A stretch of DNA of 64,000 bases. It comes from Spirosoma telluris. GTDB lineage: Bacteria; Bacteroidota; Bacteroidia; Cytophagales; Spirosomataceae. The notes under the pieces were generated by a model. The model was not told the origin of the DNA, did not search any database, and saw only the letters and a list, made by a program, of their open reading frames with translations. Below, one piece after another: positions 3,687-62,428 of this stretch. A program made the position numbers and the translations under genes. Every line of letters starts with the position of its first letter. Within the stretch, counting starts at the first letter, position 1. Where the stretch lies: the NCBI GenBank assembly GCA_003259005.1, contig QLII01000001.1, positions 248,001 to 312,000 on the forward strand, read 5' to 3'.

Positions 3687-4849
3687 ATGATTTTTGATGC
3701 AATTGTCGTTGGACTGGGTGCTATGGGTAGTGCTGCCCTCTATCAGCTTTCGAAACAAACGCCCCATGTGTTAGGCCTTGATCAGTTTTCGCCACCGCAT
3801 ACGCTGGGGTCTACCCATGGCGAAACCCGAATTACCCGGCAGGCTATTGGCGAAGGGGCTCATTTTGTGCCTCTGGCGCTGCGGTCGTATCAAATCTGGC
3901 GCGAGCTTGAGCAACAGACGGGTGAGCATCTACTGACCATCACGGGTGGACTTTTTGTTGGGCAGACTGCTTCTTACCAACCGATGCATAATAAGCCTGG
4001 CTGGCTCCGAACAACCATTGAAGCCGCCGAAACCTTTGGCATCGCTCATCGTATGCTGGATACTGTTGCACTTCGGCGGGAGTTCCCCCAGTTCAACTTT
4101 CGTACCAATGATATTGGCTACTATGAAAAAGAGGCCGGTTTTCTGAACCCGGAACGATGTATTTCTACACAGCTTGACCAGGCTCAAAAAAACGGAGCCT
4201 CTGTACGAACCAATGAACGAATGCTAGCCTTCGAATCGAAAGGGGCCATATTAACCGTTCGTACCGACCAGGCGACGTATCAGACCCGAAAACTGATTCT
4301 TACAACAGGTTCCTGGATAACCGAATTGCTTCGAAAAACCCTTACCATGACCTTCTTCGGGTGTACAGGCAGGTACTATACTGGTTTGCTATTCAGGATA
4401 ACTATTATCAGTATACACCTGATCGGTTCCCTGTATTTATTCTGAGCGACCGGGAGGTATATGGTTTTCCGGCCATTGGTGGTCTAAAGGGCGGCCTTAA
4501 ACTAGCGACTGAAGTATATGAGCAGGTAACGTCACCCCAGGTTGTAAACCGTATGGTGAGTACGGCCGAAACTCAGACCATGTATGAACAGCATGTGGCT
4601 CCTAATTTTGCAGGAATTGGCCCTGCCTGCGTTAAATCGGCCGTTTGTCTGTATACCATGACGCCAAACGGTGATTTTATTATTGATCAGCATCCAGATT
4701 ATTCGAATATAATCCTGGCGTCGGCCTGCTCAGGGCATGGATTTAAGCATTCAGCGGCTGTTGGGCAAATTTTATCGGAACTAGCCCTAAAAGAAACAAC
4801 CGAATTTAATATACAGGCATTTCGACTAGCTCGTTTTTTTAGTTTGTAG
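3687..4849 (+). CDS. FAD-dependent amine oxidase, sarcosine / N-methyltryptophan oxidase type (frame interrupted once)
   Basis: The N-terminal part starts MIFDAIVVGLGAMGS with the FAD Rossmann motif GLGAMG. The middle holds the MSOX/SolA-like signature THGETRITRQAIGEG. The C-terminal part resumes in another frame with VYRQVLYWF and a family-like ending (DFIIDQHP, SACSGHGFKHSAAVG). The two parts join near 4334-4341, a run of five A followed by three C. One extra base there restores 388 codons, the usual length for this family, which oxidises N-methyl amino acids with release of aldehyde and H2O2. The covalent-FAD cysteine is probably the one in ASACSGHG. Substrate specificity is not decidable. 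The break looks like a dropped homopolymer base rather than decay. Confidence 0.82.
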
Positions 4850-4958
4850 ATCACTACTACTACTAAAAATAATACCTATTGTCCTGAAAATAGAGATATA
4901 GTGCACTATTAAGGCATTTTTGGCATGATTGATGTTCTGTTTTTCAAAAAAGGCAATC

Positions 4959-5318
4959 ATGATTCTTGACGAACGAGCTCGTACCGTTTTCTCTTCTATC
5001 AGTGAACCACTCATCTGTTTTTGGGGCGCTAAAGCTAGCCAGGTGAGGGATGTTTACGAGGCTTATACGAGTTTGTGGGCGTCGACACCTAGCGAAGAAC
5101 AGGCTAGAGAAATTTATGACTCATTAGTAGCCATAGCTCTGGCCGAAGATAAATGTTACCCAATTCATTGGCTGTTAACGGAGCTACGGTTTGAGGCCTT
5201 CGCAGCGGCAACGGGCGACCGTAAGTGGGCGGCTCTTATGGATTTAACCCATGGAAAAAGGGTAAAAAATGATGCAGAGCTTGATCTCTATAATGAGCGA
5301 TTAATAAGGGAGCTTTAA
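4959..5318 (+). CDS. Hypothetical protein (119 aa)
   Basis: I chose the ATG at 4959 (MILDERARTVFSSI) over an in-frame ATG 30 bases upstream, whose extra residues (MMFCFSKKAI) look non-coding. The product is a small, soluble, helical protein rich in acidic and aromatic residues (CFWGAKASQ, YPIHWLLTELRFEAFAAATG). No signal peptide or membrane segment is present. I recognise no family. It sits alone on the plus strand between the amine oxidase and the convergent DUF2071 gene. Confidence 0.6.
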   Translation: MILDERARTVFSSISEPLICFWGAKASQVRDVYEAYTSLWASTPSEEQAREIYDSLVAIALAEDKCYPIHWLLTELRFEAFAAATGDRKWAALMDLTHGKRVKNDAELDLYNERLIREL

Positions 5319-5422
5319 GCTTCCGTTTGGTCAGGAATTACACGATCAAAAAAGCCTATCGAACCGGTCATAGCTAGGGCTTTCCAAAATATAGATTCTG
5401 AAGATTCTAGATTGGAAGAGGA

Positions 5423-7118: not shown

Positions 7119-7226
7119 GCGTGGATAACGCTAAATACACTGGTTTTGTCAGAAAAAAGGCTGGCTGTTCGGGTCGGATAGCATAGATAAGGGAAGAAGT
7201 CAACAACTGGAGAATTGGTTTAAGAA

Positions 7227-8631: not shown

Positions 8632-8714
8632 CCATAAACAATTCTGTCCTCATACTTAAATGCTTATCTTGAACACTTAAACAGACAACCGACCAACTTT
8701 GATTGATAGAAAAA

Positions 8715-10044
8715 ATGAAGATGAACCTTACTGCTACCTGTTTCCTCGGATTAGTTACCGGCTCCCTTCTGTGGATTACGCATGCCCATGCCCAGGAGGC
8801 AGAGCCGGGAAAAGAAGGTAAAGTGGAAGCCCAGTATAGTCGGGAAATTGATCAATTAGCCAGGGATAAACAGATACAAAAGGCTTTCCAGCACATTGTG
8901 GCGCAACAGAAGCAAAATCGCGAGGAGCTGATTATGCTTACCGAGATTCCGGCTCCTCCATTTATGGAACAAAAACGGGGAATCCGTTTCGCATCGATGC
9001 TGAAAGAAGCTGGCGCCGATTCTGTCTGGACGGACAAAGTAGGTAATGTGATTGCGTTACGCAAAGGCAGGAAAGGCAAGGGTTGTGTGGCACTAGATGG
9101 TCATTTGGACACCGTTTTCCCAGCGGAGACGGATGTGAAAGTAAAAATGAAAGGGGATACCCTATTTGCTCCGGGCATTGGCGATGATACACGGGGGCTG
9201 GTGGCGGTGGTTGCTGTTTTGCGAGCACTTGAAGACGCAAAAATTGAAACACAATCGGATGTTTTATTTATTGGTAGCGTAGGCGAAGAAGGGCTTGGCG
9301 ACTTAAGAGGGGTAAAACATTTGTTCAGCGATCAAAGCTGCCGAATTGACTCCTGGATTTCGATTGAAGCGGGGGCTATGGGACGCGTCAGTAACATGGG
9401 GCTGGGGTCTAACCGGTACAAGATTACGTTTAAAGGTCCGGGAGGACATTCCTGGGGCGCGTTCGGTCTGGCGAATCCCCAGCACGCTTTGGGATCCGCT
9501 ATTCACTATTTTTCGAAAGCGGCCGATAAATTCACGCGAAGCGGAGCCCGTACCAGCTTTAATGTGGGTCGAATTGGCGGGGGAACATCCGTTAACTCCA
9601 TTCCGTTTGCGTCGTGGATGGAGGTTGATATGCGCTCAGAAATTCCGGAAAACCTTGTTCTGATCGATTCGCTGTTAAAAGCCTCTGTCCAGAAAGCGCT
9701 GGAAGAGAATAACCAGATGCGCCGGTCAGGTCCGGCCTTAACGGTTGAGTTTGAGCGGATTGGTGAACGCCCTTCTGGCGAATTAGCGGAAACCCTGCCC
9801 TTAGTGCAGCGCTCTATGGCTTCTGTCGCCTATTTTGGCGCTTCCCAAAAACCGGTAGGGGGTCTACGAACTCAAATATCCCCATTTCAAAAGGAATCCC
9901 GGCGGTAACGATTGGGCAGGGAGGTACCACTGGGGTAATCATGCGCTCAACGAATGGTGGTATGATACGGAAGCTTACAAAGCCGTTCAGGCCGCGCTGC
10001 TAACCCTGGTTGCTGAAGCCGGAATGGTCAAAGTCAGACCCTGA
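8715..10044 (+). CDS. Exported M20-family metallopeptidase (frame interrupted twice)
   Basis: The ATG at 8715 starts a signal peptide (hydrophobic core LTATCFLGLVTGSLLWI, cleavage near HAHAQ). The M20 landmarks follow: VALDGHLDTVFP (metal His/Asp), GIGDDTRGLVAVVAVL, IGSVGEEGLGDLRG (catalytic Glu pair), SWISIEAGAMGR, the dimerisation-domain motif GPGGHSWGAFG, and a C-terminal NIPISKGIPAVTIG leading to the metal His in GGNHALNEWW. The last 45 residues need two frame corrections, each one missing G: in the run at 9858-9862 and at 9932-9935. With both restored the gene has 444 codons, normal for periplasmic M20 peptidases acting on di- or tripeptides. Stops appear only because of the shifts. Confidence 0.85.
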
Positions 10045-13045: not shown

Positions 13046-13068
13046 GCGAATCAGTAAACAAAAATGAC

Positions 13069-15334
13069 ATGAAGAAAAAACTCATGATGGGATTACTATG
13101 CCTTTTCCTGACTACTATAGGCGTGGCACAGCGGTTAACATTGACAACCACAACCGTTGCCGATAGCCTCAGATTTGCTCAGGCAGTGCAACGGCTAGCC
13201 GGTGATATGCTGGCTGTTTATAAATCCCAAACAGACCAAAAGGCTTTTTTTGAGACGGATTTTCGCCTGCAACTGGTAGCTGGTAACTACGCCGAAGCGA
13301 GAAAGAGCCTTGCCTCAGTGCGGTCGTTGTCCAACGATTCCCTGGGCAGATTTCTGTATGCGCCCTATGACTTATTCGCCGAAGCGTGCTTAAGGCAACG
13401 CCAGGAGGAAGGCAGTTTTTCGTCGTACTTTAGCCCGCTGTTAACTACATTTTTGACTGGCCTGACTGATCGACAAGCGGTGGCTGTGTCGTCGGCTTTT
13501 GTTAGTCGGAATGGGTTGTCGGCTTGAAAAATGAACTGGTTAAGCGGCTATCTGAGGTTAACAAAGACAGTCTGGGTATATCTGAAGCCATCGCAATTTG
13601 TACTGCCTATGCTACTTTACAGGTGTATCAGCACATTGAAACGATTGCCAGGCCTGTGGTGAAGGCAGATGACGAGCGCCGGTTTATTATCGCAGATAGT
13701 GTACTGATCAAAACTAATGAGGGCGCAATACTATCGGCCGTCGTTGTTCGTAAACGAGGGGTAACAGTTCCCCAACCCACAGCCTTACTCTATTTTATTT
13801 ATTCCAATACAGATCGCAGTATAGCCGACGCAAAATATGCGGCAGCACGAGGGTATGTGGGTATGGTCGCCGACACACGAGGCAAACGGCTGAGTCCCAA
13901 TACGGTGGAGCCCTACGAGCATGAAGCCACTGATGTTAATTCGGTAATTGACTGGATCGTTCGGCAGCCCTGGAGTAATGGCAAAGTAGGTATGTATGGG
14001 GGCAGCTATTCCGGTTTCGCACAATGGGCGGCATTGAAACATCCACACCCTGCCCTGAAAACGATTGTGCCGTACGTAGCAGCAATTCCCGGTCAGGGTT
14101 ACCGATGGAAAACAACGTATTTCTAAACGCTAATTACCAGTGGGCGTTTTATGTAACGAATACGAAGTACGTTGATAATGAGGTAAATAATGACAATCAG
14201 CGCTGGCGTCGGATGCGGAACCGCTGGTATGAAACGGGAGCTGCCTATTCTAAAATTGACAGCATCGACGGGACGCCCAACCCCTGGTTACAGCGATGGT
14301 TAAAACACCCAGCCTATGATACATACTGGCAGAGGATGGTACCTTATGGGACTGACTTTTCGAACATTACGATTCCTGTGCTGAGCATCACTGGTTATTA
14401 TGATGATGGCCAGATTTCGGCCATGCAATACGTTACCGAGCACTATTCCTACAAACCCAATGCAGAGCATTACGTGATCATCGGCCCTTACGATCATTTT
14501 GGCGCTCAGCAGGGTGGAACGCCGATATTGCGTACCTATAGTGTGGACCCCGTCGCCTTGATCGACACGAAGGAAATCACGTTTGCCTGGCTGGATTATA
14601 TACTGAAGGGAGGACGGAAACCGGCACTATTGAAAGATAAGATTAACTACGAAGTAATGGGGGCCAATGTCTGGCAACATGCTCCATCCATCGCCAAAAT
14701 GAGTACGACCCGCCTACGACTTTACCTGTCCGATCAGAAAGAGGGGGATAACTTTCGGTTGAGCGCACAAAAGCCAGTCGTACCCAGCAAGCTAAATCAG
14801 CATGTTGACCTCGCCGACCGTAGTACCTCCAATAATGACTACTACCCGGACCCGATCATCAAAAAGTCATTGGACCGCAGTAATGGCCTGTTTTTTATAA
14901 GCGAGCCCTTCGATCAGGAAGTTTCCCTCAACGGGATGTTTTCGGGCGAACTGAAAGCCATAATCAATAAAAAGGATATGGACATTGGGGTCGTGCTATA
15001 TGAGCTGACGCCACAGGGTGAATATTTCGAGTTGTCTTATTTTTTGGGAAGAGCGAGTTACGCACGTGATGCAAGCCGTCGGCATTTGTTAAGGCCAGGT
15101 GTGGAGGAAACGATTCCATTTTCGAAGACAAGGCTGGTTAGTCGTCAGCTAAGCAAAGGAAGTCGGCTGCTGGTCGTGTTGAATATTGATAAAAACCCCT
15201 TTGCGCAAATCAATTATGGGACGGGTAAGGACGTGAGCCTGGAGACAATTCGGGATGCTGGCGAACCTTTAACAATTCAATGGCTTACCGATAGTTTTAT
15301 CGACGTCCCGATTCAACGAAATATGGGTCGTTAG
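13069..15334 (+). CDS. Exported CocE/NonD-type S15 hydrolase (X-Pro dipeptidyl-peptidase-like; frame interrupted twice)
   Basis: The signal peptide is MKKKLMMGLLCLFLTTIGVA. A helical N-terminal region of about 150 residues precedes the alpha/beta-hydrolase domain with its nucleophile motif GMYGGSYSGFAQW and the cap-region YPMENNVFL. The acid/His part (TGYYDDGQISAM, IGPYDHFG) and a C-terminal jelly-roll PepX_C domain (GLFFISEPFDQEVSLNG) follow. The family hydrolyses X-Pro dipeptides, esters or antibiotic-ester bonds. Frames break near 13513-13515 (GGG) and 14102-14103 (CC); one restored base at each gives 756 codons. It lies 24 bases behind the LytTR regulator, so it is probably regulated by or with that system. 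Confidence 0.82.
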
Positions 15335-15347
15335 TACGCGTCCAATT

Positions 15348-29182: not shown

Positions 29183-29230
29183 TGAAAAGTAATTAATTAT
29201 TTGTTGGAAAAATTGAAATAAACTTAATAG

Positions 29231-42409: not shown

Positions 42410-42423
42410 GATAATTTGCCAAA

Positions 42424-43764: not shown

Positions 43765-46700
43765 TTATCGAGCGATAAGGAGCTTCGTGGACTGAATAGC
43801 TTTGGCTGTTTCCAGCGTCAATAAATAAACACCCGTCTGGAGATTGGGAATATTGACCGACAGTTCATAGACGTTCTGGCCAGTCGCCGACTGCTGGTAG
43901 ATGTCTACTCCCGTAGACAGCAGGGGTTTGACCTTTATTTTTACATCGCTGACTCCCGACAGCGTAATTCGAACCTTGAACTCGCCCGAACTCGGATTCG
44001 GCAGAATGGTGAGTTCCTGAATAAATGGCGTAGTCTGAACACTCGTAGTAAGCTGTGGTTCGGCCACAACCGTTACGGATTTTGTTATCGCAAAGGCACA
44101 CTGACCTTGCTGCCCGTTTAACGTAATCGGGTAGGTGCCGAGTTGATTGAACGTTACCACGAGCTGATCCTCCGTACTACTGACTACCTGAGCCCCAGGC
44201 GGTGCTGTCCAACTGGACTGAGCTGGTCGGGGATTCGTCAGGTTGACCGCAATCAGGGGTTCTCCGATGCCAACCTTCGAGCCGACGGCAAACGCTAGCG
44301 TTGGGGCCGGGGTGTCAGACGCCGTCAGCGTAATTTGGGCAGTAGCTACACAGCCATTCTTATCGGTCGCAACGACCTGATATCGTCCGGCGGCCGTAAC
44401 GCTGACCATGGCTGTCGTTCTGGTAGACCCGTCCGGGTAGGTCCAGACATAGGTAACCCCGTCTGTAATCGTACCATCCAGATCGACTACTTGTCCTTTG
44501 CAGATGAAGGTATTGGCACGCAGAACAATCAGTTTCTGCACTGGACGAGTTAGGGATGTTGTCTGGGTTACCGTGCATCCATTCGCATCAGTAACCGCCA
44601 CGGTATAACTTCCACTACATAAACCCGTCAGTGACAGCGACTGACTGACCGGATTCTGCCAGGTAACCCCATAAGGTGCCGTTCCTCCCGTTGGAGTTAT
44701 GGTTATGCGGCCATCGCAGTTGTCATAGCAGGTAGGAGTAGCCGTTACCGTAGCAATCGTTAGGCCTGGGTTGCTGGATCTGCACCGATACCTGTGCCTG
44801 ACAGGAGTTGGCATCGGTGATGACAGCCAGGTATTTACCCGCCTGCATGTTGGCAAGCGAAAGTCCGGTTTGCTGCGTGCTCCAGCGAGTAACATACGGA
44901 GCTGCTCCACCCTGAATGGTCACACTGGCACTTCCGTTTGCCAACCCAAAACAGCTAACGTTTGTCAGAGATGCTACCGTTGCTACCAGTGGAAGCGGCT
45001 CAGGCAGGAAAATCTCGAAATCTCTGGAAACACCATTCCCATCTGTAGCCGTTACGACATAGGTGGTCGAACTGGCATTGGTCAGGCGATTAGTACCTTG
45101 TGTGACTACCAAACCCGATGATTTTACTTTCCAGCTATACGAATACGGATCACGGGATGGTTTAGGAGTTCCCCCCGACACGTCGACAGAAACAATTCCA
45201 TCGGACCCTGAGGCACAGGAAACTGCCTTAACCACCGTGAACTGTGCCTGGAGCTGAGTCGGTTGGGTCAAGGTGTACGATGCCTGGGTAGTACAGCCTG
45301 CCTTATCCGTTACCATGACGGTATAGGTCCCACCGCCAAGATTCGAAATGGTGTGGGTTACCCCGAATTAGCGGGCTGCGTTGATGTCGTCGGATTTGAC
45401 ACCGACCAGGCAAAGCTGTAATCGGGAGTGCCGCCAGTTACGTTCAAGGTGATAGTCCCGTCGGTCAACTGAAACCCGGATGGATTTTTAACAACTCCAC
45501 TCGTAATCGTAAGCGAAGCAGCAGGCTGGGCAATCGTTACTAAAATCGGTTGAGCCGACAGGCAGGCATTCCCATCCCGAAGCTGAATTGAGTAGGTGCC
45601 GGATGACAGGTTATTGATCTGATGCTGAGCGCCCGACTGGAAGTTCTGGAAAGCGCCCCCGTTGATGGCAAACTGATAGGGGCCAACACCGCCATTCGCA
45701 ACCAGCGTAATCGTGCCATTGGTATTTCCAAAGCACAGGACATCGGATTTGGTCGCCGAGAGCGTTATCGGTGGGTTATCATCAATGGTAAAATCCTGAA
45801 CAGTCTCATCCGATGGTTGTGCCCCAACAATTGACTGTACTCGAACCCGATACGAACCTTTCGCAAACACGCTCGGCGATGTGAACGTGGACCCCGTGAA
45901 GGTGTAGGACGTAACCAGTGTCTCAACGCCCCCCGCCAGAGTATACACCCGAGCCTGAAAAGCGGATTCGCCCGCTTCCAGACCTCGACTCAGTATCAGA
46001 CTGAACGAACCGGTCGACGAACCCGAACAGACCGCTTTTAGGGTTGTCAGCGAACTAATCGTTGGTGGCGTTTGACGGATGGTCACCGTGAGTACATTCG
46101 AGATCATAATGGGGCTCAACGCCCGAAATTGAATCGCCTGATTCAGGTAAGCTGGCGCTTCGTTTCCTAAGAATGACGTGGCCGAAACCGTAATCGGTGT
46201 ACTGTTGTCAAAGGTTGACGGGAAGTTCACCCAATCGCCTGTAGCTGTTTTGTATTGCCATACAAACGAGCCAATGTTTTGCGTCACCGTCCCAATCCAG
46301 GTAACGGCGTTCAACGGCAGTATATCGCTGGAGCCTGCCAGTTGCAGAATCGGCTGGGTAACGGATACGCTGACAGGTGACGTACAGCTAACGGAGCCCG
46401 CTTCCGTTGAGATTAGACACGTGGCTGAATACGTAGTTGTCAGCGTTGGGCTAACGACAATCGAAGACCCATTCTGCTGCGAACTCCAGGTGACGGTTCC
46501 GCCCGTACAACCCGAAGCGGTCAGCGTCGTGCTTTGTCCGTTAAAGATAGCCGTTGGGTTAGCCTGCACACTAAGATTACAAACGGGCCGGGCAATGACT
46601 GTAACTGTTGCCGAGGCCAGACACGTAACCGACCCAGCAGCCGTACTAATGGTACAGGTGGCCGTATAGGAAGTCGTAGCCGCAGGACTAACTGGAATAC

Positions 46701-49700
46701 TCGTGCCAGACTGTCCCGTATTCCAGCTTACGGTACCGCTACAGCCTGTAGCCGTTAGACTTGCCGTGCTTCCGGCGAATATAGTCGGCGTATTGGTTTG
46801 CACTTGCAGGTTGCAAGCGGGCCGGTTAATAACCGTTACGGTCACCGGCGCAGTACAAACAACCGGGTTACCCGAGGTTGGTATCGTACAACTGGCGGTA
46901 TAAACGGTTGTTTCACTCGGACTCACGACCAACGTTGATCCAATTTGCTGCGAGTTGTTCCAGGAAATGGTACCATTCGCACAACCCGATGCGGTGAGCG
47001 TCGTACTCTGGCCGTTAAAAATCGTTGTCGGATTCGCCTGAGCTGTAAGCGAACATGTGGGTTGATTAACCGTTACAGTCACCACACTGGTACAGGTAAC
47101 CGGACTGCCCGAAGTTGGGATACTACAGATGGCGGTGTAAGACGTCGTTTGGGTAGGACTGACCACATAGATTGAATTAGCTGGCCCACCTACCCAACTC
47201 ACCGTTCCACTACATCCACTGGCCGTCAGGGTTGAACTCTGCCCATTGGTGATCGTAAAAGGAGAGGCAGAGGTTGTTAGTGTACATAGGGGTTGATTGA
47301 CCGTCACCGTAACTTGGCTAGTGCAGGTATTAGATTCGGACAACGTACAAACCGCCGTGTAAGTAGTCGTCTGAGTCGGGTTGACTACATAGACTGAGTT
47401 AGTTGGCCCACCCACCCAGTTAACTGTCCCACTGCATCCACTAGCCGTCAAGGTCGAACTTTGGCCGTTGGTGATAGTCGAGGGAGAAGCGGAGGTGGTC
47501 AGAGTACACGGAATTGGATTGACCGTAACGGTGACCGCACTAGTGCAACTAACCGGGCTTCCTGACGTAGGAATAGTACAGGTAGCGGTATAGGTAGTTG
47601 TCGCAGAAGGGCTTACAATAATAGATGCCCCGGTCTGTTCGCTATTCGTCCAGCTGATGGTGCCTGAACAGCCGCTGGCCGTCAGGCTAGCACTCTGGCC
47701 ATTCGTAATAGTGGTAGGGCTGGCCGAGGTAGTCAGATTGCAGGCAGGTTGATTAACCGTCACTGTCACCACGCTGGTGCAGGTATTAGAGGCTGATAAC
47801 GTACAAATCGCGGTGTAGGTGGTCGTCTGGGTGGGGTTGACCACATAGACTGAGTTGGTTGGTCCACCCACCCAGTTAACTGTCCCACTGCATCCGCTGG
47901 CGGTCAGGGTTGCACTCTGCCCGTTAGTAATTGTCAAAGGAGAAGCCGAGGTCGTTAGTATACAAGGGATTGGATTAACCGTGACGGTGACCGCACTGGT
48001 ACAGCTAACCGGGCTTCCCGAGGTCGGAATACTACACGTCGCGATGTAAGTGGTGGTATTGGAGGGGCTTACGACAATAGACGATCCCGTTTGCTCGGTG
48101 TTTGTCCAGGTGATGGTGCCCGAACAGCCACTGGCCGTCAGCGTCGAACTTTGCCCAACAGTAATAGTGGTAGGGCTAGCCGAGGTAGTCAGATTGCAGG
48201 CAGGTTGATTAACGGTCACTGTCACTACGCTCGTACAGGTAACCGGAGCGCCCGAGGTCGGGATGCTACAAGTTACGGTATACGATGTCGTTTGGGTCGG
48301 ATTCACCACATAGACTGAGTTGGTCGGGCCTCCAGCCCAACTCACCGTTCCACTGCAGCCAGTGGCTGTTAAGGTTGCGCTTTGCCCGTTGGTGATGGTG
48401 CTAGGAGAAGCCGAGGTAGTCAGCGTACAGAGTGGTTGATTAACGGTCACCGTGACGATCGACTGACAGGTGACCGGACTACCTGAGGTGGCGATCGTAC
48501 AGGTTGCCGTGTACGATGTCGTCTGTGTGGGATGGACTACATAAACCAAGGCAGTCGGTCCACCCACCCAACTCACCGTTCCACTGCACCCGCTGGCCGT
48601 CAGGGTCGAACTTTGGCCGTTGGTGATGGTCAAAGGAGAAGCCGAGGTGGTCAGCGTACAAGGGATTGGATTGACTGTCACGGTGACAGCGCTTGTACAA
48701 CTCACCGGGCTTCCTGAGGTAGGAATACTACATGTCGCGATGTAAGTAGTCGTATTTGAAGGACTTACGACAATAGACGATCCTGACTGTTCGGTGTTTG
48801 TCCAGGTGATAGTGCCTGAACAGCTGCTGGCTGTCAGCGTCGAACTCTGTCCAATCGTAATGGTGGTAGGGCTGGCCGAGGTAGTCAGCGTACAGGGTGG
48901 TTGATTAACGGTCACCGTGACGATCGACTGACAGGTGACCGGACTACCTGAGGTAGCGATCGTACAAGTTGTCGTATACGATGTCGTCTGAGTAGGATTG
49001 ACTACATACACTGAGCTAGCTGGTCCCCCAGCCCAACTCACCGTTCCACCGCATCCACTAGCCGTCAGTGTTGCACTCTGCCCGTTGGTGATGGTCAAAG
49101 GAGAAGCCGAGGTGGTCAGAGCGCAAACGGGTTGGTTGACCGCCACGGTCACCACGCTGGTGCAGGTATTAGAGGCCGATAAAGTGCAGATAGCTGTGTA
49201 AGTAGTTGTCTGAGTCGGGTTGACTATATAGACTGAGTTCGTTGGACCACCCACCCAACTGACGGCTCCGGCACATCCGCTGGCCGTCAGGGTCGAACTC
49301 TGTCCGTTGGTGATGGTCAATGGAGAAGCCGATGTGGTGATACTACATACAGGCTGACCAATTGTTACGGTTACCTCACTGGTACAAATTACTGGATCGC
49401 CCGAGGTTGTGATGACACAGGATGCCGTATAGGATGTCGTCTGAGTCGGATTCACCACAATCGAATTACCTCCCCGGTCCACTCCACCGCCACTCCAGTA
49501 TACCGCCCCACTGCACCCGCTAGCGGTCAGGGTCGAACTTTGCCCACTCGTAATGGTGGTGGGACTGGCCAAGGTGATGAGGTTGCAGGCAGGTTGATTG
49601 ACTGTCACCGTGACGGCACTGGTACAGCTAACCGGGCTCCCTGAGGTAGGAATGCTACAGGTGGCGATATAGCTAGTCGTGAGCGAGGGGCTTACGACAA

Positions 49701-52700
49701 TAGATGCCCCGGTCTGTTCGGTGTTGGTCCAGGTGATGTTACCACTACAACCGCTGGCCGTCAACGTAGCACTCTGTCCATTCGTAATGGTCGTGGGAGA
49801 GGCCGAAGTAGTCAGATTGCAAACGGGTTGATTAACTGTTACGGTTACACTACTGCTACAAGTATTGGACGCCGATAACGTACAAATAGCCGTATAGGTA
49901 GTTGTCTGGGTCGGATTGACTATGTAAACTGAGCCTTCCTGGGCCGTCCCAATCCAACTAATTGCCCCACTGCATCCACTGACTGTTAAGGTCGAACTTT
50001 GTCCGTTGGTGATCGTGGCAGGCTTCGCGACCACTGAAATAGCGCAAAGGGGATTAAACGTGACCGTGACTTCACTCCGGCAGGTACCTGCTCCATTGAT
50101 GGCGCAAATTGCTGTATAGGAGGTCGTTTGAGTGGGGCTAACTACATAAACTGAGTTCGTTGGTCCACCTACCCAGCTTACTGTTCCGCTACAGCCACTG
50201 GCCGTCAGGGTGGCACTCTGGCCATTGGTGATTGTTGTCGGGCTGGCCACAGTTGTGAGGCAGCAGGCAGGGGTCACCGTAACGCTGGTTGGCGTTTGAC
50301 AGCCATTGGCATCTTTCACGATAATCGCATATGCACCTGCCTGTAAATCGGTAAACTGCGGACTATCCTGATAGCTTCCGCCATTATTAATCGAGTATTG
50401 ATAAGCCCCTGCACCACCCGTAGCACTCAGACTAATAGCGCCGGAGTTCGCACTCGAACAATTGATAATATCCGTCTTGCTCACCGAAACTACCAATGGC
50501 TGAGGCTGGCTTAAACTCACCGAACGTACATCACTTAAACATCCATTCGCGTCTTTAACAACAATCAGATAGGCTCCTGCTGTCAGATTCGAAAATTGAT
50601 TGCTGGCCTGAAAAGTAGCTCCATTGTTTTTCGAGTATTGATAAGCCCTGAGCCGCCTGAAGCACTCACCGTTATACTTCCCGAATTACCGCCAGAACAG
50701 GCCACATCGGTTTGGCTTATACTAAAGGTAACCGCATCTGGCTGAGTGACCTCCGTCGTTGGTGCATCCAGGAGGCAGTTATTGGCATCTCGTACAATAA
50801 TATGATAAGTTCCTGCCGACAGACCCGTAAATTGGTTGCTCGTCTGATAACTCGATCCATCGGTAATCGAATAGCGATAGGGGGCGGTACCGCCTGTAAC
50901 CTGCACCGAAATTGACCCATTAGTACCACTGTAACAGGAAACAGGAGTGGCCGTTGTCGTGGCCGAAAGAGCCGATGGCTGGCTAATCGTTGTTGACTGG
51001 GTCGTGCTTAGGCAACTGTTAGCATCTTTTGCTACCACCTGATAGATGCCAGCGGGAAGGTTTGTAAACTGATTGCCCGGTTGAAAATTGCTCCCATTAT
51101 CAATCGAATATTGGTAAGCACCTGTACCACCCGACGCCGTTAGGCTGATACTTCCCGTATTGGCACCAAAACAGGTTGTGACATTGGTCTTGCTCAGGCT
51201 AAGCGTAACCACGGCTGGCTGGGTAATCGTTATGGTTTGGGCGGTTGTGGTGCAGTTGTTCCCGTCTTTTACCACCACCTGGTAGGGACCTGCGGCTAAA
51301 TCACTAAACGTACTGCTGGTTTGATAAGTGGCTCCGTTATCCCGAGAGTACTGATACGAACCGCTTCCTCCCGTGGCCGTTACACTGATACTCCCATTGG
51401 TAGCACCGGAACAAGTGGTTACGTTCGTTTTGCCAATCACAACGCTTAGTGTGGCAGGCTGGGTGATCGTGAAGGCTTGTGCCGGAGTTACACAGTTATT
51501 GGCATCTTTTAAGATAACCTGATACGTCCCTGCACCAAGATTTGTAAATTGATTACCAGGCTGGTACGTTGACCCATTGTTTTTTGAATATTGATAGGGA
51601 GCCGTACCGCCACTGGCCGTCAGGGTTATCTGACCGTTGTTTCCCCGGCACAACTCACCTCGGTCAATGTACTGGTAAACGTAAGTGGATCAGGCTGCGA
51701 GATGGTCACTGTCGATTGGCTCGTACTACAGCCGTTGGCATCACCAACCGCTATTGTATAGTCGCCAGCCGCCAAACCCGAGGGCGAGCGTATCGCATCA
51801 AATTCACCTCCATTCAGGGAAAGCCGATAGGGGGGTGTCCCGCCCGATGCCGTCACCGTAAACGAACCGGTAGCACTGCCATTACAGCTAACATTGGTTT
51901 TGGCTACGGTATAACTGATGGCTGAGGGTTGCGTCAGGACGATTGACTGAGCCGACGTCTGGCAACCGTTAACATCGCTGACGACGACCGCATAGGTACC
52001 AGCCCCTAAATCGGTAAACTGATTTCCCTTCTGGAAGGTAGCCCCATTATCTTTGGAGTATTGATAAGGAGCCGTGCCCCCTGTAGCCGTTACGGAGATA
52101 GAGCCCGTGGTGTTGCCAAAGCAACCCGTTACATTCACTTTCGTGGTATTGAAGGCTAATACAGCCGGTTGCGTAAGAGTAGTCGATTGAACGGGTGTCA
52201 GGCAATTATTGCCATACTTGACTACGACTGGATACACACCCGCTCCGAGTGAATTGAAGCGGAAATTGGTGGTAAACGTAGTTCCGTTGTTAATAGATGC
52301 ATACGTCTGACCCAGATCAGCACCACCCGTCAGGTCTACCAGAATCGAACCGTTCTGCAAACCATTACAACTCACGTTGGTCACCTGTGGCGTAATTGTA
52401 GGAGCTACCGAGGATGACATCTGATAAGAAGCGGGCTTCACCACACAACCATTGGCATCTTTCACCACTAATGCATAAGAACCTAGCCCTAAGCCGGTGA
52501 AAAGGGGACTGGTCTGGTACGTCTTTCCATCATCGAGCGAGTATTGATAAGGTGATGTTCCCCCAGTTGCTGTTACGCTGTAGGCTCCTACACTGAGTCC
52601 AGGGCAAGTCTGGGTCATTGACGTTACACTGGCTTCTATCGCTGATGGCTGGTTAATGACTACGTTCTGGGCTGATGTGGTACACCCATTCGCATCTTTT

Positions 52701-55700
52701 ACTACGACCTGGTAAGTGCCAGCCGCAAGTCCGGTAAACTGGTTACTGGTCTGGAAGGTAGCCCCATTATCTTTTGAGTACTGATAAGCAGCCGTACCCC
52801 GGAGGCCGTTACCGTAATACTGCCTGTACTGGCACTAAAGCAGGTGGTCACATCAGTTTTGGCCGTAGTAAAGGAGACAGCCGTGGGCTGGCTAATGACG
52901 ACGGTCTGGCTGGAACTGGTACAGGCATACCCATCTCGCGCCACAACGGTATACGTTCCAGCAGCCAACCCTCGAAGAAAGGTCCCTGATACGTTTGGCC
53001 GTTATCAATCGAGTACTGAAATTCATTCCGCCCCCCCGAAGCCGTTAGAGTAATCGTACCATTTGTACCACCGAAGCAGGTAGTCACGTTGGTTTTCTCA
53101 ACGGTCAGGCTGATTGAGTTGGGTTGATTTATTGTAAGAGTCTGAACGCCACTCAGGCAATTGTTCGCATCTTTAACAACAATCAGGTAGGTGCCTGCTG
53201 CCAGATTCGGAAATTGATTGCCTGGCTGAAAGCTGGCTCCATTATTTTTTGAGTACTGATAAGCCCCCGTACCACCCGAAGCACTCACTGTGATACTCCC
53301 CGAATTACCCCCAAAACAGGTCACATCCACTTGGTCGGTACTAAAGGCAACCGCATCCGGTTGAGAGACCTCCGTCGTTGGTGCATCCAGGAGGCAGTTA
53401 TTGGCATCGCGTACAATAATATGATAAGACCCCGCTGACAGGCCTGTAAACTGATTACTCGTCTGATAGGTAGATCCATCAGTAATCGAATAGCGATAGG
53501 GCGCTGTGCCCCCGTTACCTGCACCGTAATTGACCCATTGGTGCCACTGTAACAGGAAACAGGAGTGGCCGTTGTCGTGGCCGACAGGGCCGGTGGCTGA
53601 TTAAGTATAACCGATTGAGCATTCGCTACGCAACCGTTGGCGTCTTTCACCACCACCTGGTATGTTCCGGCGGGAAGATTTGTGAATTGATTGCTGGCCT
53701 GAAAGGTAGCCCCGTTGTCTTTGGAATATTGGTAGGGGCCTGTACCACCGGAAGTCGTTACCGAAATGGAGCCTGTACTGTTTCCGAAGCAACCCGTTAC
53801 ATCGCCTTTTGTTGTACTAAACGCTAACAAGGTGGGTTGCCCAATGGTCACGTTCTGAGCCGTGGTTACGCAGTTGTTGGCGTCTTTCACCACTATCTGA
53901 TAGGTGCTCGCGGGAAGACTAGTAAATTGATTGCTGGCTTGAAAAGTGGCCCCGTTGTCTCGGGAATATTGATATCCACTCGTACCGCCCGATGCCGTTA
54001 CTGTGATGCTGCCATTCGTCCCGCCGAAGCAGGTGGTCACGTCGGTCTTGCTGATCGCAGCCGTCAGAACCGAAGGCTGCGTAACGGTCACCGACTGTAC
54101 GGCTGTCACGCAGTTATTGGCGTCTTTCACCACTACCTGATAGGTGCCAGCGCTCAGATTATCGAACTGGTTGGCGGGCTGGTAGTTCGCTCCGTTGTCT
54201 TTGGAGTATTGATACCCACCCGTGCCGCCGGAAGCCGTCACCGTAATACGTCCGTTCGATCCACCCGCACAGAGTACGGGCGATGCCGAAGTTGTAATCG
54301 ATATAGCGGATGGCTGGTTAATCGTACTGGTTAGATTTATGGAACAACCGTTTGCATCTCGAACGGTCAGGTAATAGGTTTGGGCTGCTAGACTGTTGTA
54401 TTGCTGTCCAGCCGCTGCCCGTGCCCCACGAAGACCAGCCTGTTGGCTTGTTGCACGCAGCACACTCGGATTGGAAATCAAAGCGGGTCCGTACATCGAA
54501 AAAGTATACTGATAAGGCCCCGTTCCACCTTGTGCGTCAATGGTGATGCGCCCATCATTGCCCCCAAAGCAGCTCACATCTACTTCTGTAAGCGTATAGG
54601 TAAGTGCCGTTGGCTGGCTGATCACAATGTTCTGAGCGGCAGTTACGCAACCGTTGGCATCTTTCACCATAACCGGATAGGTGTCAGCCCCCAGGTCAGC
54701 AAAAAACCGATCGTCTGTATAGCGATTTCCATTATCGATTGAATACAGATAATAGGATGTTCCGCCCGAAGCGCTGACCGATAGGGAGCCGCTGCTGTTC
54801 CCAAAACAATCGCTTACATCCGTCTTAGCCACGGTGAAAGTCAATAAATCGGGTTGGCCGACGGTCACGCTTTGGGCCGCTGAAACACAGCCGTTGGCAT
54901 CCTTCACCACAATCGGATAGGTGTTAGCAGCCAAATCCGTGAATGTGTTACTGCTTTGGTAGGTGGCCCCGTTATCGCGGGAGTATTGATAGGAATCTAT
55001 ACCACCCGATGCATTAACCTCAATAGAACCCGTACTGCTTCCGAAACAGGTTGCATTGGTTTGATTAGCGGTAAACGTTACGACGGTAGGTTCGCTAACC
55101 TCAACTGACTTGCTTTCCGACAGGCAGTTATGCGCATCCTTAACCACGATTGCATAGTTACCCGCTGACAGTCCCGTAAACTGAGCGTTGGTCTGAAACG
55201 TAGTGCCACCATCGCGGGAGTACTGGTAAGGGGCCGTTCCACCTGACGGTATTACTGTAATACTACCACTTGAAGTGCTGTTGCACTGGGCGTTAGTAAC
55301 GGAGGTCTCGGCCACCAAAGCGGAAGGCTGATCAAGCGTAACGTCTATTGATGTATAACAGAAATTAGCGTCATGAATTGTGATATAGTAGGTCTGTGCG
55401 GCTAAGTTGTCGTACTGTTCACCAGCAGCCACCCGCGCTCCGCGACCATCGGCCAATTTGCTGGTTGTGCGTGGGTCATTGGGATTGCGAATCGACGCAG
55501 GGCCATAGGCAGAAAAGAAGTATTCGTAGGGACCTGTACCGCCCGATGCCTCAATTGAGATTCGCCCATCTGTTTCCCCAAAGCAGCTGACATCTGTTTG
55601 GGTAATCGTGTAGGTAACCGCTGTCGGCTGGCTAAGCTCCACCGTCTGAACCGGAGCCGTACAACCATTGGCATCCTTCACCGCAATCCGATAGCTTCCG

Positions 55701-56692
55701 GCTCCCAGTTCACCGAACAGGTTACCATCCTGATACGTATTGCCGTTGTCTTTTGAGTATACATATGAACCCGATCCGCCAGCGGCTGTTACGGTAATAC
55801 TACCTGTTGTTGCATCATGGCAATTTAGGGTACTGGTTATCGCAGTGCTGAACGATACGGGAGCCGGCTGGGTCACGCTAACCGATTGAACCGGCGTTAC
55901 GCAGTTATTGGCATATTTTACCAGTATCGGATAGGTGCCCACTCCCAGCAGATGGAACTGGGTGTCGTTCACATAAGTGGCTCCATTGTTGATCGAAATA
56001 AGGGCTTGACCAATATTGACGCCACCCGATAGCGTGACTCGAATCGAGCCGTCCTGAAGACCATTGCAACTCACATTGGTTACGCTTGGTGTTACGGTCG
56101 GAGCCGTGGGAGCCGTTACCTGATAGGTGGTATTTCCAAACACGCAGCCATTGGCATCTTTAACCTTCAATGGGTAAAAGTTAGCGGGTAAAGAAGTAAA
56201 CAGAGAACTCGCCTGATACGAATCACCCCCATTCAGTGAATATTGGTAAGGTCCTACACCACCACCTGCGCTTGTACTGATCGCGCCTGTACTTAGGCCG
56301 GGGCAGGTAGACGTCACGGACGTAACACTGGCGGTTAGAGGGGCTGGCTGGTTGATGGTCACCGCCTGAGCCGCCGATACGACATTACTCCCGTCCTTTA
56401 CAACAACCTGATAGGTCCCGGCGGTCAGATTCGTGAATTGGGGAGTATCGGTAAAGGTAGCGCCGTTGTCTTTGGAGTAGAGGTAGTTACCCGTCCCTCC
56501 CGATGCCGTTATCGAAATGCTCCCCGTCGCCTGACCATTGCAAAGCAAGACATCGGTTTTGGTGTAGGTAAAGGTGGGGGCAGCCGCCAGACCGTCTGAA
56601 TACGTTGCCTTATCAGTGGTGGTCGCGTTGACTTGAATTGACCCTGCCAATAGCCAGACTAAAGCCAGAAGAAATACGTATAAGTTTTTCAT
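43765..56692 (-). CDS. Giant SprB-repeat, T9SS-secreted adhesin (frame interrupted seven times)
   Basis: The ATG at 56692 gives a signal peptide (MKNLYVFLLALVWLLAGSIQ). Restored length is about 4,311 residues. From about 41 to 2142 there are some 26 SprB-type repeats of about 80 residues (consensus SYQYSKDNGATFQ, F.NL.AGTYQVVVKDANGC). Then come 17 Cys-bearing Ig-like repeats (about 2143-3448), about five more SprB-like repeats, and a T9SS type-A sorting domain (LTILPNPSSGEF to STKLLIAR) in the last 82 residues. Six breaks (53509, 52969, 52797, 51643, 50646, 45361) need one base each in G/C runs; 44763-44770 needs two more bases or one fewer. SprB in Flavobacterium johnsoniae is the mobile gliding adhesin. 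It is probably surface-exposed; ligand unknown. Confidence 0.9.
46351..50265 (-). repeat. Array of 17 tandem ~77-residue Ig-like coding repeats
   Basis: Seventeen consecutive repeats within the giant gene. Each opens with C, contains ITNGQS(A/S)TLTASGC, a W and a run of the type NPTQTTTYTA, and ends TVTVNQP. Each has four cysteines at fixed places. Two subtypes, WVGGPTNSVYVV (A) and WTNTEQTGSSIVV (B), recur in an A-A-B order in several places. The DNA repeat is about 230 bases. Confidence 0.9.
50266..56572 (-). repeat. Array of ~26 SprB-type coding repeats
   Basis: About 26 repeats of roughly 243 bases, each with one CFG-type cysteine near the start and DANGC or DANNC near the end. Two repeats carry the same insertion of about 20 residues (around 55396-55531 and 54382-54513). 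One pair of repeats (53361-53600) is almost identical to another (50740-50984). Confidence 0.88.
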
Positions 56693-56730
56693 AAAAAAGG
56701 AAGGCTTGGCTTCGTAGTTGGGCACATTTT

Positions 56731-56818
56731 TCAAACACAGAGGCACAGAGATCACAGAGAAATAAATGGCTGATTTCAAGAAAATTAAACTCTGTGTTCT
56801 CTGTGCCTCTGTGTTTGA
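56731..56818. repeat. Long inverted repeat between adhesin and upstream gene
   Basis: TCAAACACAGAGGCACAGAG and nine more bases (56731-56759) pair with 56790-56818 at 28 of 29 positions around a 30-base spacer. The sequence (CACAGAGGCACAGAG) has the look of a dispersed repeat. It lies in the 153-base gap before the giant gene and could form an attenuator or RNA-processing hairpin within the operon. Confidence 0.8.
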
Positions 56819-56845: not shown

Positions 56846-59040
56846 CTATTTTGGGATCGTATAGCTAATTGTGAGCTCGTTCGTGCTGGCATAGTAACCA
56901 TCTTTCATCATCGTTTTGATGACGTATCGATAGGGGACATTCTCCGTTTCGGGTCGGTCAGAGAGGGTCGATTCGGTTGGGGAAAGCTCCCGCAGGACGC
57001 TGAGTTTATCGCCGGGTGCCTGTCGAAAAATATAGAGCTTGTCGATGCCCGGATCGGTCGGGGCCTGCCAGTTCAGGACAATCTGCTTCGTCGTTTGATC
57101 AATGGTGGCTTTGAAATCGGCGATGTTGATTTTTCGGACAAAAAATGGCGTTTCAATCACCAGAGGCTTTGTTGGTTCTGCCTGATTTCCAGCTTCATCC
57201 ACACACATAAGCACGTAGACGTAAATCCGTTTTTCCTGAACTGTTGTGTCTGTAAACGTATTAACCCGGCGCTTTTTGAAGTCAGCAATCACCGTCCAGG
57301 CTGTATCACTATCGACCGCCGATGTGGGAACCGACCGCCGATACAAGAGCGTACTGGCCAGATCCTCATCAATGTTTTCACCCCACTTCAGCGTCACTTT
57401 ATGGTCGTCGACGGTATAATCGTTGAAGGCCACCTGCGTAGGAGGGGTTATATCCGGGCGTTTCAGAACGAGTACTTTTGAATACGAAGAGTGATTAAAC
57501 CGGCGGTCAATGGCCAGCACGTAGTAGTAAATTTTGTGGTTGAGCAAGGTAACGTCAACCGAATCGGTAAACGCGTTTTGGGTAATAAATTCCTTGATGC
57601 GCCGAACCGGAGCCGAGGCCGAGTCATTCGCCATGAACACATAATACCCCTGCATGTCGCGCTCACTGTTGGCATCCCATTTGATGCGCACAACACCCGC
57701 TTTGTCGATCTCACCGGTTAGACCCGCGGGGCCGCTGGTGGAATACTGTCGGCCAACTGAACCAGCGTCGGGAAGGACGGAATGGCGTAGCCCTCCCGGT
57801 TGAGCACGGCTACTGAATAATAAGTGGCATCATATACGCTATCGACAATAATCGTTCGCTGCGTAATGGGCAATACCTTCGTGAACTCCACAAAATTGCT
57901 ATCCACATAGGCCGATCGCCGGATCACAAACCCCTTGATCTTGCTATTGAGTGCTTCAGGAAACGTCCAGTTGAGTCGTGCTCGGGTCGTATCGATCATC
58001 GTCCCTGTCACCCGAACAGGCGGCAAGGGCGGCACTCCTCTTCCCTTCACCATGTTGGAGGGTGCGCCAAGCTCCTGGAAAATGGTCGAACCCCGAACCC
58101 GGTAGTAGTAGACAGTTTCGTTATTAGCCAGACTATCCGAATAGCGAGACATCGAATCGGAGTCGGGCGTCAGGTTCGTGACCGGCATGGAACTGATTTG
58201 CCGGTAGCGGATGCTATCCGTTGCGCGCTCAATCGTGTACGAATTAAAGCTGCTTTCCAGTTTACGGTAGTTCCACAACAGACCAGCCCGCTTATCGGCA
58301 AACAACACACTCAAATCCTGAACAGCAGGCAGCGGTTCAGCTTCGCCAGCTGTCAGTAGAATATGCCCTTCGGTTACCCGAAGTATTTTCGTGGGTACCA
58401 GCGTGCGGATTGTATAGAGATACCTGGTGCCTTTTTTTACCGTCGAATCCGTTATTCCCAGGCCAGCCACCTGAGCAGCGGCAAAACTGAACGAAGCCCC
58501 CCATAAAGCAGCCCCATAATGGTCGTTCACCGAAACCGTGTCCTTTTTAGTCGGTGAATTCTGGGCGGCCAGGCTCCCTTTCATGGTGTGATCGGCGATC
58601 ATGGCGTGATAGGGCGTTCGCTTATTGATGTACCGTACCCAGCCTGCATTGGTAGGTGGTTTAATTGCTTTTCCTCCCCCCAGAACGGTACGGTTAGTCA
58701 GGAAATACTGGACCGAGTCGATCATAATGTCATTCATCATGGCATTTACATTCGCCGAATCCCGACCTTCCTTCACGAGCGTGAAGCGAATGACTTCATA
58801 GCCATATACATTCGCCTGTTGCCAGACCGCTGGTGAGCTGGGAAACCAGCGCAGTACGTTCCGGGTTGGCTGAGCCCTGCCCACTACATAGATCGTTGGA
58901 CCCGTTCGTCCGTTGGGCGGGCCTGGGATATTGACCTGAGCATCCGTATGCGTTGGCAACAGCATAGCGAACACACTCAGCAAACCGATGAGCAGGCAGG
59001 ATCGTGTAGCAGTTACCAGACTAGTTGAGAGAGGAGACAT
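56846..59040 (-). CDS. Secreted fibronectin type III-rich protein (frame interrupted once)
   Basis: The ATG at 59040 starts a signal peptide (LLIGLLSVFAMLLPTHTDA). Restored length is 731 residues. FnIII-type beta-sandwiches can be read through most of it: WNYRKLESSFNSYTIERATD, VRVTGTMIDTTRARLNWTFP, GVVRIKWDANSERDMQGYYV and VTLKWGENIDEDLASTLLYR. Unlike many T9SS cargo proteins it ends (NELTISYTIPK) without a recognisable sorting domain. The frame breaks in CCCC at 57728-57731 (coding-strand C); one base restores it. It follows the next protein by 39 bases and precedes the giant adhesin by 153, so it is part of the same operon. Confidence 0.82.
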
Positions 59041-59079
59041 AAAAAGCACGTAAATAAGTTTGGGAGGTGTAGAGCAGCG

Positions 59080-62000
59080 TTAGTTACACTTGGTGCCAAG
59101 CGATATATCGATACTGCCCCCACCTTTATATAGACAGACTTCGGTGGTATACGATTTCCAGGATGTACTACAGTGTAGTACAGTATTATGCCATCCGCCC
59201 CACCAGCAGTTCGTTTCGGGATACCAGATGGTAAGGTTGTTACACAGGATGCGGGCATAAAAAGACAGTGTGCCATTAAAGTAGAGGGGGTCCATACCCC
59301 CTGCGTTCAGGTTGGCACTCACCGTAGCCTGAGCAAGGTCATAGTCGCTTCCACCAACCCGCACACCTGCCCGCCCCGAAGCTGAGAAATAGACGCTTAG
59401 CGTGGCGTACCAATCTTTCGTTTGCCGGACATTAGCGCAGTATACATTCTTCTGGAGGAGGAATTTAAGCCCCATATTGAAGTTCAGTTCGGCGTAGAAA
59501 ATGGAGCCGCGCATCATACCCGTGCCGCCCCGCAAATCGTAGGCAAAGCCTAGCCCGGAGCCCCCATTCTGAAACGGAGAAGGGAGCGAACTTCCGGTAA
59601 CCAGATAGGCCGTAGCCGAACCCGTAAAGGTTCCTTTCTGGAAACTCAGGCTGAGTGGTGTGGCGGGCTTACCAACGTAGATGTACCAGCTATTGGCACT
59701 GAAATACATGTCGACATTGCCAACCTTGTTATTTGCATACGACCCGTGCAGCGAACCATCGGGCGTGCTGAAATAGGCCGCTCCGGCAACAATTAGCTCA
59801 TTCGTGGAAAAGTTATAGTCGACCCCCAGATTGGCCGTCATAATGGCCGACGATTGGGCCGGGCGAGGCACACTAGCCGACTTATCGGTCATGCTACCCG
59901 CGGTACTCGTAGGCAGGGTCTTGTAGGTGCTGGCCAGGTTAGCCCCCCCACTAGCGCCGAAGTTGCCAATCTTGGCACTCACAAACAGGCCTATGCGGGT
60001 CAGCCCATAACTACCACTCATTTCCATCATGAACCCCCCGTACCATCCAGCGTTTTTCCCGCATCGAACGAGGATCGAAAAGCCAGGGCGAACATGACCC
60101 CATAATTATCTTTCTTCGGTTCGTAGGCCATACCAGTCATCGAAAAATCGCTGGTTTTCTGCGGCTTACGCTCCATGTTGATCGCGAAGCCACCGCCTAG
60201 GCCATATAGCTCCATGGGGCCAATTCGAATGCCAACGGGCAGGGTCACCATAGCGTCCAGATAGAAATAGTAGTAGTCGTTGACGCGGCCGAAAATGGAT
60301 TTCACATCCACCGTAACCGAGCTGCCCATAGCGGCCCCAACATTGATATTTAACGTTCCTTTAAAGCCATTACCGAAAATGGGGTCCTGCCGCATGAACT
60401 CCAGTCTCCCCTTTATTTTGAACGCGGAGAAATCGGCATCAATAGCAAAATTGTTTAAAGCGACCCCGCTCAAGTCCCACGAATCTTCGCCGTTAATGGT
60501 GGTTTTTGTCCAGGTGATATCCCCGTCGACCTTAGCCGCAAACGATTTGCTTTGCAGGGTCAAATCCAGTCCCAGACCCAGAATGAAGGTGGGTTGTCGG
60601 GAACTGTTTTGCCCGAAACTGGCCTGAACGCGTCGGATTTGGAGTGGAAAACCACCTAAGCTATTGGTTTCATCTTTGTAGCCGAAGCTCGTTACCGAGA
60701 TGTAGGGCTCTACGGTCTGGAGAACCAGATTCTGGAAGTTGATCTGTTTGAAGCCAACATCTTTGGCCGTTCCGGCACCGGCTCCGCCAGATACATCGCC
60801 CGACAGGTTGACGCCAAATGCCCAGGTGCCCGATAAAACGGCTTTCGGTTTAAAGGTACCCTGCGACACTTTTAACTCCACGTACGAATTAGGAGCCAAC
60901 GTTGCCTGACCACCGAACATATTGAGTGGCTTCAAATTGCCGATGCCGATGGTTAACGAATACTCTTCCTGAATGGGGTCGATCAGGCCCCGGTAGGTCA
61001 GAATTTCAGGAACGTCTTTGGGGTTCGTTGAGGTGCTTACTGTCTGGCCTTTTTTCGATGCGATGGGTAATTTAATCCGACCCGCCAGCGAAAGGCGCTG
61101 AAACTCATTTCGTTTAATAGAAAGATTTAATGTATCGAGCGATAAGGGCCAGCCACCGGCAGCGCCATTCTCGAGGGCAATCATGTTGTAGGCAAACAAC
61201 GAGAAAGTCATCCCGGTACCATCAATGAACAGGTCCTTGGTCCCGAATGCCCGGAGCGGATCATCGGCGGATGGTGTTGAGGCAGCAGCGCCATTGGCTG
61301 GCTTTTTAGAGGCCGCAATTTCTTTAGGGAGTAACACCTTAAGTGTCTTGATATACACCCCCGCCAGGCGGCAAACTCAGTGGCATCTTTATAGGTGGGG
61401 TCGTAATTGATCAGCGCAGTTTTCATGTCGGCAGAGGACATGTCGTCGCTGAAATCAAAGGTGGCATCCTGCACCACAAACCCAACTTTCTTAGCAAACT
61501 TAGCCAGTGAAAAGGCGGGCAGGCTGATGCTGAACACAAAGTTCTGGAAACCCTGGATCTGCGTTTTAATGGTGGTCGATACGGGTTGGCCCGCCAGTAC
61601 TGCACCGGTTTTCTCGTCGATGCGAACAAACGTACTGGATGTCAACCCAAGCGTAGCCGAAAGGGAAATCTGTTTGAACTTGCCGCAGTCAAACTCCAGC
61701 GAAGTTTGATCCGACATCACACCGGTTTGACTGATCGTGCCTCCATTCAGCTGGAGGGTCATGCTTGAACCGATGTTGAAGGTGTAGTTGCCCAGCAGAA
61801 CCAGCTTGGCCGTACCGGCAAAACCGGTTCCCTGGATGTATTTAAGCTTATCGATACCAAAGAAAATCTCACGTCCTTTGATGTAAGCGCGCACATAAGC
61901 CGACATTTCGATGTAGCCCGGAAAGAACGTTACCTTGTTGATTCCCAGTAGTAAACCCGTCGAATCTTTCGCATTGGTTGCTCCGTTCGTGGCGGCACCG

Positions 62001-62428
62001 GCTTTCCCAACCTTTACGAAAAAGGGTAGCTCTTTGAACGAGTCGGAGGAGAAATCGTCAGCTACAATGCCCCCCGATGTTGCCAATCCATCGAAGAGTT
62101 TTTTAGCCGCGGATGCATCGGCCGACAACACATCAGGCACATCAATCGCTGCCAATTCCTTCGCACGGGCCAGCAGTTCCTGCCGTGCCGGAGCGGGCAG
62201 GCTGTTCATTAGCGCCTGATCTAACTTGCTCAGCGTTTTTAAACTGATCGTCGTGTTGACCGCACCATCTGGTTTAGTCGGACTGGGCAGGCTCGGCGTA
62301 CCTTCACGAACCGGATTTTTAGTGTCGTCCGTGACGTGTTCCCGGCCAGTAGCCGTGTAGCCCCGCTGGCCTAACAGACTCAGCCAACCGATCAGGAACA
62401 GTCGTAAAAAAGTAGAAAGTTTACTCAT
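59080..62428 (-). CDS. Large secreted beta-rich protein of unknown family (frame interrupted twice)
   Basis: The ATG at 62428 starts MSKLSTFLRLFLIGWLSLLG, a signal peptide. The restored protein has 1,116 residues. After a helical segment (LSKLDQALMNSLPAPARQEL) it is almost entirely alternating beta strands rich in Gly, Ser, Thr and Phe, with many amphipathic strand pairs (AVLSGTWAFGVNLSGDVSGG, TFILGLGLDLTLQSKSFAAK, RGSIFYAELNFNMGLKFLL). This suggests a long beta-solenoid or a barrel-like surface structure. The Cys/Trp-rich end (NCWWGGWHNTVLHCSTSWKS) is notable. Breaks lie in runs of C at 60034-60039 and 61358-61362; one base at each gives 1,117 codons. Not recognised; an outer-membrane or secreted scaffold is only a guess. 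Confidence 0.78.

Follow-up and report, generated by a model that had tools for sequence, protein, structure and literature searches.

Frameshifts throughout a Spirosoma telluris assembly as probable consensus errors at G/C runs

In a 64,000-nucleotide stretch of the Spirosoma telluris assembly (contig QLII01000001.1, positions 248,001 to 312,000; hereafter the window), a preliminary description had listed 23 frameshifts that split ten genes and had proposed that they are errors of the consensus. Our analysis backs this proposal: the breaks are almost certainly assembly consensus errors, and the genes are ordinary ones, intact in the living cell. The evidence lies in a genome-wide excess of -1 shifts, in a dependence of these shifts on the length of G/C runs, and in the splitting of the sole copies of dnaA and rplP. 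The window itself is not special, as deletion-type shifts cover the whole genome (9.09 Mb, four contigs) and reach wider than the ten genes. The split genes are an artefact and hold no new biology. Gene counts, pseudogene calls and completeness estimates taken from this assembly are distorted, and since it is the one genome of its species in the collection searched, any gene loss or absence inferred from it needs a check. The advice that the affected genes should not be called pseudogenes holds, and they are to be treated as intact in the organism.

We followed the reading frames with a coding-frame hidden Markov model (HMM) of seven states (six coding frames and non-coding) and a fourth-order codon-phase model, trained on the sampled stretches and applied blind to the list of breaks. 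All 23 breaks were backed, either by the HMM or by relatives. A same-strand frame switch was found within 38 bases of 20 of the listed positions, 19 of them -1 and one, at 44763, +1; the three breaks that the HMM missed (9858, 9932 and 42547, the last with an offset of about 40 bases) were found via relatives and are all -1. A -1 shift, meaning one base lost or two gained, is thus present at 22 of the 23 breaks (two-sided sign test by hand, p near 6e-6), and the claim that each break needs one added base is consistent with these 22 and fails at 44763. The latter, placed by us at 44766, is the sole listed break of opposite sign and lies inside the giant SprB-repeat gene. Two further HMM switches, at 33360 (-1) and 62489 (+1), resemble gene borders and were excluded as breaks, although the genome-wide counting rule includes them. 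By that rule the window holds 16 switches in 56.5 kb of coding sequence, a rate not distinguishable from that of the remaining genome (p 0.18). The split genes are the following.

3687..4849, + strand: N-methyl-L-tryptophan oxidase or sarcosine oxidase-like gene, two frames, break near 4339 (NF008425 match to the first piece; HMM switch)
8703..10032, + strand: M20-type peptidase gene, three frames, breaks near 9844 and 9933 (relatives; not detected by the HMM)
13060..15334, + strand: CocE/NonD hydrolase gene, three frames, breaks near 13514 and 14098 (TIGR00976; HMM switches)
25420..29200, - strand: large PQQ-dehydrogenase-type gene, three frames, breaks near 27004 and 27863 (relatives; HMM switches)
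37486..38861, - strand: PAP2-superfamily gene, two frames, break near 38270 (PF01569; HMM switch at 38269, -1)
38876..42241, - strand: FG-GAP repeat gene, four frames, breaks near 39197, 39801 and 41108 (PF13517; relatives; HMM)
42400..43759 (outer limits approximate), - strand: PKD-like domain gene, breaks near 43164 and about 42507 (listed as 42547)
43765..56779, - strand: giant SprB-repeat, type IX secretion-type surface protein gene, eight pieces, breaks near 44766 (+1) and near 45361, 50646, 51645, 52799, 52956 and 53471 (all -1)
56846..59049, - strand: fibronectin type III-like gene, two frames, break near 57728 (weak PF00041 match, under the cut-off; HMM switch, -1)
59080..62494, - strand: DUF6603-like large gene, three frames, breaks near 60032 and 61366 (weak PF20248 match, under the cut-off; HMM switches)

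The rate of such switches was compared between sixty 20-kb stretches on the four contigs of this genome (958.4 kb coding by the HMM) and 57 control stretches from eight same-genus genomes (953.4 kb). Stretches were set at fixed intervals or, in some relatives, in the neighbourhood of the lactate-utilisation genes, except that two of our own (contig C1, at 4.34 and 5.88 Mb) and two from G001, a complete relative genome in a single contig, were chosen for their rpoBC and ribosomal gene clusters. Within genes we counted 193 -1 switches here (20.1 per 100 kb) against 21 in the controls (2.2 per 100 kb), an approximately nine-fold difference (p 6e-36), while +1 switches showed no clear excess (28 against 21, p 0.39). 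These counts leave aside, as possible overlaps, switches where the stop of the old frame has a new-frame start codon no more than 20 bases away (144 here, 73 in the controls) and, as abutting genes, 11 and 9 further switches, respectively; several true window breaks fell into the overlap class, so that breaks are undercounted. The -1 rate was even over the 60 stretches (chi-square 60.7, 59 degrees of freedom, p 0.41), with at least one switch in 58 of them, and a gradient along the chromosome, hinted at by the first 20 stretches (overall p 0.12), faded with all 60. Extrapolated over the genome, the surplus of -1 switches (about 18 per 100 kb of coding sequence) comes to about 1,300 excess coding frameshifts. 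Completeness of this genome is 94.65% (contamination 4.15%) against 99-100% in 31 of the 35 other same-genus genomes, the remaining four being highly fragmented (71-84%).

The sequence context of each shift was taken as its HMM credible interval (median 45 bases in the window and 29.5 in the first 20 stretches of this genome), with expectations from 300 random placements. At the 209 -1 sites of this genome, G/C runs of at least four bases were present at 131 (36.4 expected), of at least five at 66 (8.0 expected) and of at least six at 21 (1.4 expected), and the corresponding figures for A/T runs were 58 (72.4 expected), 20 (27.6) and 8 (8.6). The share of all G/C runs found at shift sites rose with their remaining length, from 1.1% at three bases, which is near background, to 2.4, 6.5, 14.9 and 25% at four to seven, where the value for seven stands for 4 of 16 runs and none of the 4 runs of eight lay at a shift site. 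The share of A/T runs was flat, at 0.5-0.9% for remaining lengths of three to seven. At the 21 +1 sites of the controls we saw no lean to G/C runs. A bulk shortening of runs was considered and rejected, as run-length spectra of our stretches were not clearly different from those of the relatives, from which it follows that the loss touches a small share of runs. A search for a methylation-type motif at 77 sites returned G/C runs as the top enriched k-mers, with no palindromic motif at the head of the list.

Genes that a cell can hardly do without were struck as well. A set of 110 Escherichia coli K-12 proteins, which we take to be mostly essential, was compared with two samples: the window plus the 60 stretches of this genome, and the 57 stretches of the controls. 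Eight of the 35 genes found here lay in more than one frame, against none of 33 in the controls (one-sided Fisher test by hand, p about 0.003): rplE, rplP, rplD, a tufA-like GTPase, obgE, dnaA (three frames), leuS and gyrA (two steps, the first +1). Nine of their ten frame steps are -1, and with ten steps in the 31 kb covered, essential genes are struck no less than others. At 33% identity, the tufA-like match probably represents a paralogous GTPase, and without it 7 of 34 genes are split; valS (17% coverage), gyrB (32% identity) and, in the controls, gyrA may be paralogs too. Family-model searches of the whole genome found dnaA solely as three adjacent pieces and rplP solely as two, with no intact copy of either, while all four relatives searched carry one uninterrupted copy of each. 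Without a functional replication initiator or ribosomal protein L16 a cell should not survive, and it follows from the splitting of these sole copies that these particular breaks are not in the organism.

The breaks could also be read as real. A hypermutator strain, for example one defective in mismatch repair, would accumulate true slippage frameshifts and many pseudogenes, and the favouring of G/C runs agrees with this, as polymerase slippage also favours long runs. However, slippage should also add bases and strike A/T runs, and here there is neither a clear excess of +1 switches nor an enrichment of A/T runs; moreover, essential-type genes are not spared and the splitting of the sole dnaA and rplP copies should be lethal, so that a hypermutator is very unlikely. 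Recoding, in which slippage of ribosomes or of RNA polymerase on G/C runs keeps the genes functional, would account for the same favoured sites but should make equal sequences always slip. Elsewhere in this genome 4,367 G/C runs of at least four bases are read in frame, and 134 of the 156 runs of at least four at shift sites recur in frame with identical two-base flanks, 122 of them also in the same codon phase, although runs of at least six give a thin control (4 of 21). These identical contexts disfavour recoding, as does the mostly unbroken state of these genes in relatives, and we give it hardly any credence, the least of the readings considered.

A slightly better case, albeit still an improbable one, can be made for real on/off switches (phase variation by slippage in G/C runs) at some of the breaks, above all in the giant SprB-repeat gene, with errors explaining the rest. 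This gene holds seven of the 23 listed breaks, including the lone +1, whereas a rate of about 20 per 100 kb would put two to three in its 13 kb. In G001 a giant PKD/Ig-type surface region (locus L059, C1:6860001-6880000, 6154-15504) is also spread over several frames, and three of its four switches have G/C runs, of lengths 8, 5 and 5. If such switching were true, a few of the breaks in the SprB-repeat gene (43765-56779) would be real changes in G/C-run length that turn a type IX-secreted surface protein on and off. Against it, the gene sits in a GC-richer part of the window, the breaks are not confined to contingency or surface genes since housekeeping genes are struck too, and what is seen in G001 may come from residual error or from distinct genes. 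Programmed frameshifting and phase-variable homopolymer tracts are few, and are conserved or lie in contingency genes. The frame changes described here resemble them in occurring at mononucleotide runs, but differ in being genome-wide, rare in relatives and present in sole essential genes.

Several observations weigh against consensus error as a full account. At 78 of the 209 -1 sites (37%) the credible interval contains no G/C run of at least four bases. The 30 +1 sites of this genome also lean to G/C runs (at least five bases at 5 of 30, 0.9 expected), which indicates that some insertions or two-base losses occur, and the break at 44763 and the first step in gyrA are both +1. On the gene strand, G outnumbers C among runs of at least four at shift sites (107 of 156, compared with 59% elsewhere; p 0.018), a bias that a strand-symmetric error would not yield. 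A few -1 sites of the controls likewise lie on long G/C runs (at least five bases at 5 of 21, 0.7 expected), so there is a slight background, natural or residual. Most essential-type genes (27 of 35, rpoB and rpoC included) are in one frame. Finally, the case was made from assembled sequences.

Consensus error nevertheless remains by far the most probable explanation, and we infer that its cause lies in sequencing and consensus calling. In the merging of reads, G or C runs would occasionally be written one base short and A/T runs spared; the rate of omission would climb with the length of the G/C run, and each omission within a gene would move the frame by -1 and split the gene in the sequence record, while the cell keeps an intact gene. 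An excess of lost bases, a risk that depends on run length and an occurrence throughout the genome regardless of gene function, which are the marks of long-read deletion error, were all found. Our guess at the source is a low-depth PacBio-type consensus without short-read polishing.

Comparable errors are described in passages of earlier reports. One unpolished PacBio consensus contained 561 single-base homopolymer deletions in a genome of about 3.2 Mb (a 2.9-Mb chromosome and three plasmids), or about 18 per 100 kb (PMC4888979). The present losses are like these in kind, in amounting to hundreds per genome and in density, the coding excess here being similar; the passage concerned is silent on a preference for G/C runs. 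In a MinION assembly the errors are described as chiefly false deletions in runs two to eight bases long, with fragmented orthologs (PMC12007338), and nanopore assemblies are reported to carry run indels that cause frameshift errors (PMC9262707); here, too, errors in runs shift frames and fragment genes. In the MinION account deletions fell most often in A/T runs, G/C runs having about half that number (PMC12007338), in contrast to the lack of any A/T excess here.

Returning to the window, synteny with the sampled parts of the relatives was seen only at the lactate-utilisation genes (17.5-20.4 kb), and relatives were therefore sought gene by gene in 36 same-genus genomes, our own included. Matches were found in 28 genomes for the oxidase, in 33 each for the M20 peptidase and the CocE hydrolase and in all 36 for the PQQ and FG-GAP genes, and for 60027-61358, within the DUF6603-like gene, in just 11, all distant. 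Several of the broken genes are single open frames in relatives, and mapping such frames onto the window gave successive -1 steps at 10 breaks in five genes and at one break in the PKD gene, the second PKD break coming from a separate match. That no other in-frame stops occur was borne out by most tblastn matches, which had none; the exceptions, in the M20 and CocE genes, cross a break in one frame. Internal stops counted within HMM segments carry no weight here, since the model itself is penalised for stops and does not pass through them. Some weaker relative matches contained a stop or a shorter frame.

At the DNA level, 14 single-base gaps against relatives were found in eight genes, nine in the window and five elsewhere, one of the latter probably just upstream of dnaA. 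The nine window gaps lie in five genes, and the base is present in every relative that covers them. The junction held a G/C run of at least three bases in 10 of the 14 and an A/T run of at least three in 5 of the 14. The description of the sites as mononucleotide runs, mostly G/C, agrees with those 10 gaps; at no fewer than two junctions, near 9933 and 27004, the relatives show no pure run.

Among individual genes, the oxidase has an open frame of 388-392 amino acids in its five best relatives against 261 here, with a single-base gap against all five; it is absent from the frame mapping, as the longest frame at the relative loci is that of a neighbouring gene. For the M20 peptidase, frames in the three best relatives span 440-450 amino acids, one (L090) mapping to frames 3, 2 and 1 in succession and another (L089) to 3 and 2, with single-base gaps against all three. 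The CocE hydrolase is in one frame of 765-781 amino acids in four of its five best relatives and of 606 in the fifth, and maps to frames 1, 3 and 2. The PQQ gene is a single frame of 1260-1275 amino acids in its five best relatives and maps to frames -1, -3 and -2 at 85-95% identity. One frame of 1092-1114 amino acids encodes the FG-GAP gene in the four closest relatives; it maps to frames -1, -3 and -2 here, which span two breaks, and the third break comes from the HMM only. For the PKD gene a distant relative (L215) maps to frame -1 and then -3, and a distant relative's tail (44% identity) matches the third frame near 42507. The single 989-amino-acid frame of a relative of the DUF6603-like gene (L107) maps to frames -1, -3 and -2 at 27-33% identity. 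In the giant gene, SprB (PF13573) matches 12 stretches of one piece and the last piece carries the type IX secretion sorting domain TIGR04183; together with the HMM switches this suggests that the eight pieces are one gene.

The lactate-utilisation operon (LutB/LldF family and neighbours) is intact in the window at 17584-20381, and it was found in pieces, at 71-79% DNA identity, in four other genomes. A second LutB-like copy of our own genome (C1:7527555-7528909) is likewise split, into two overlapping pieces.

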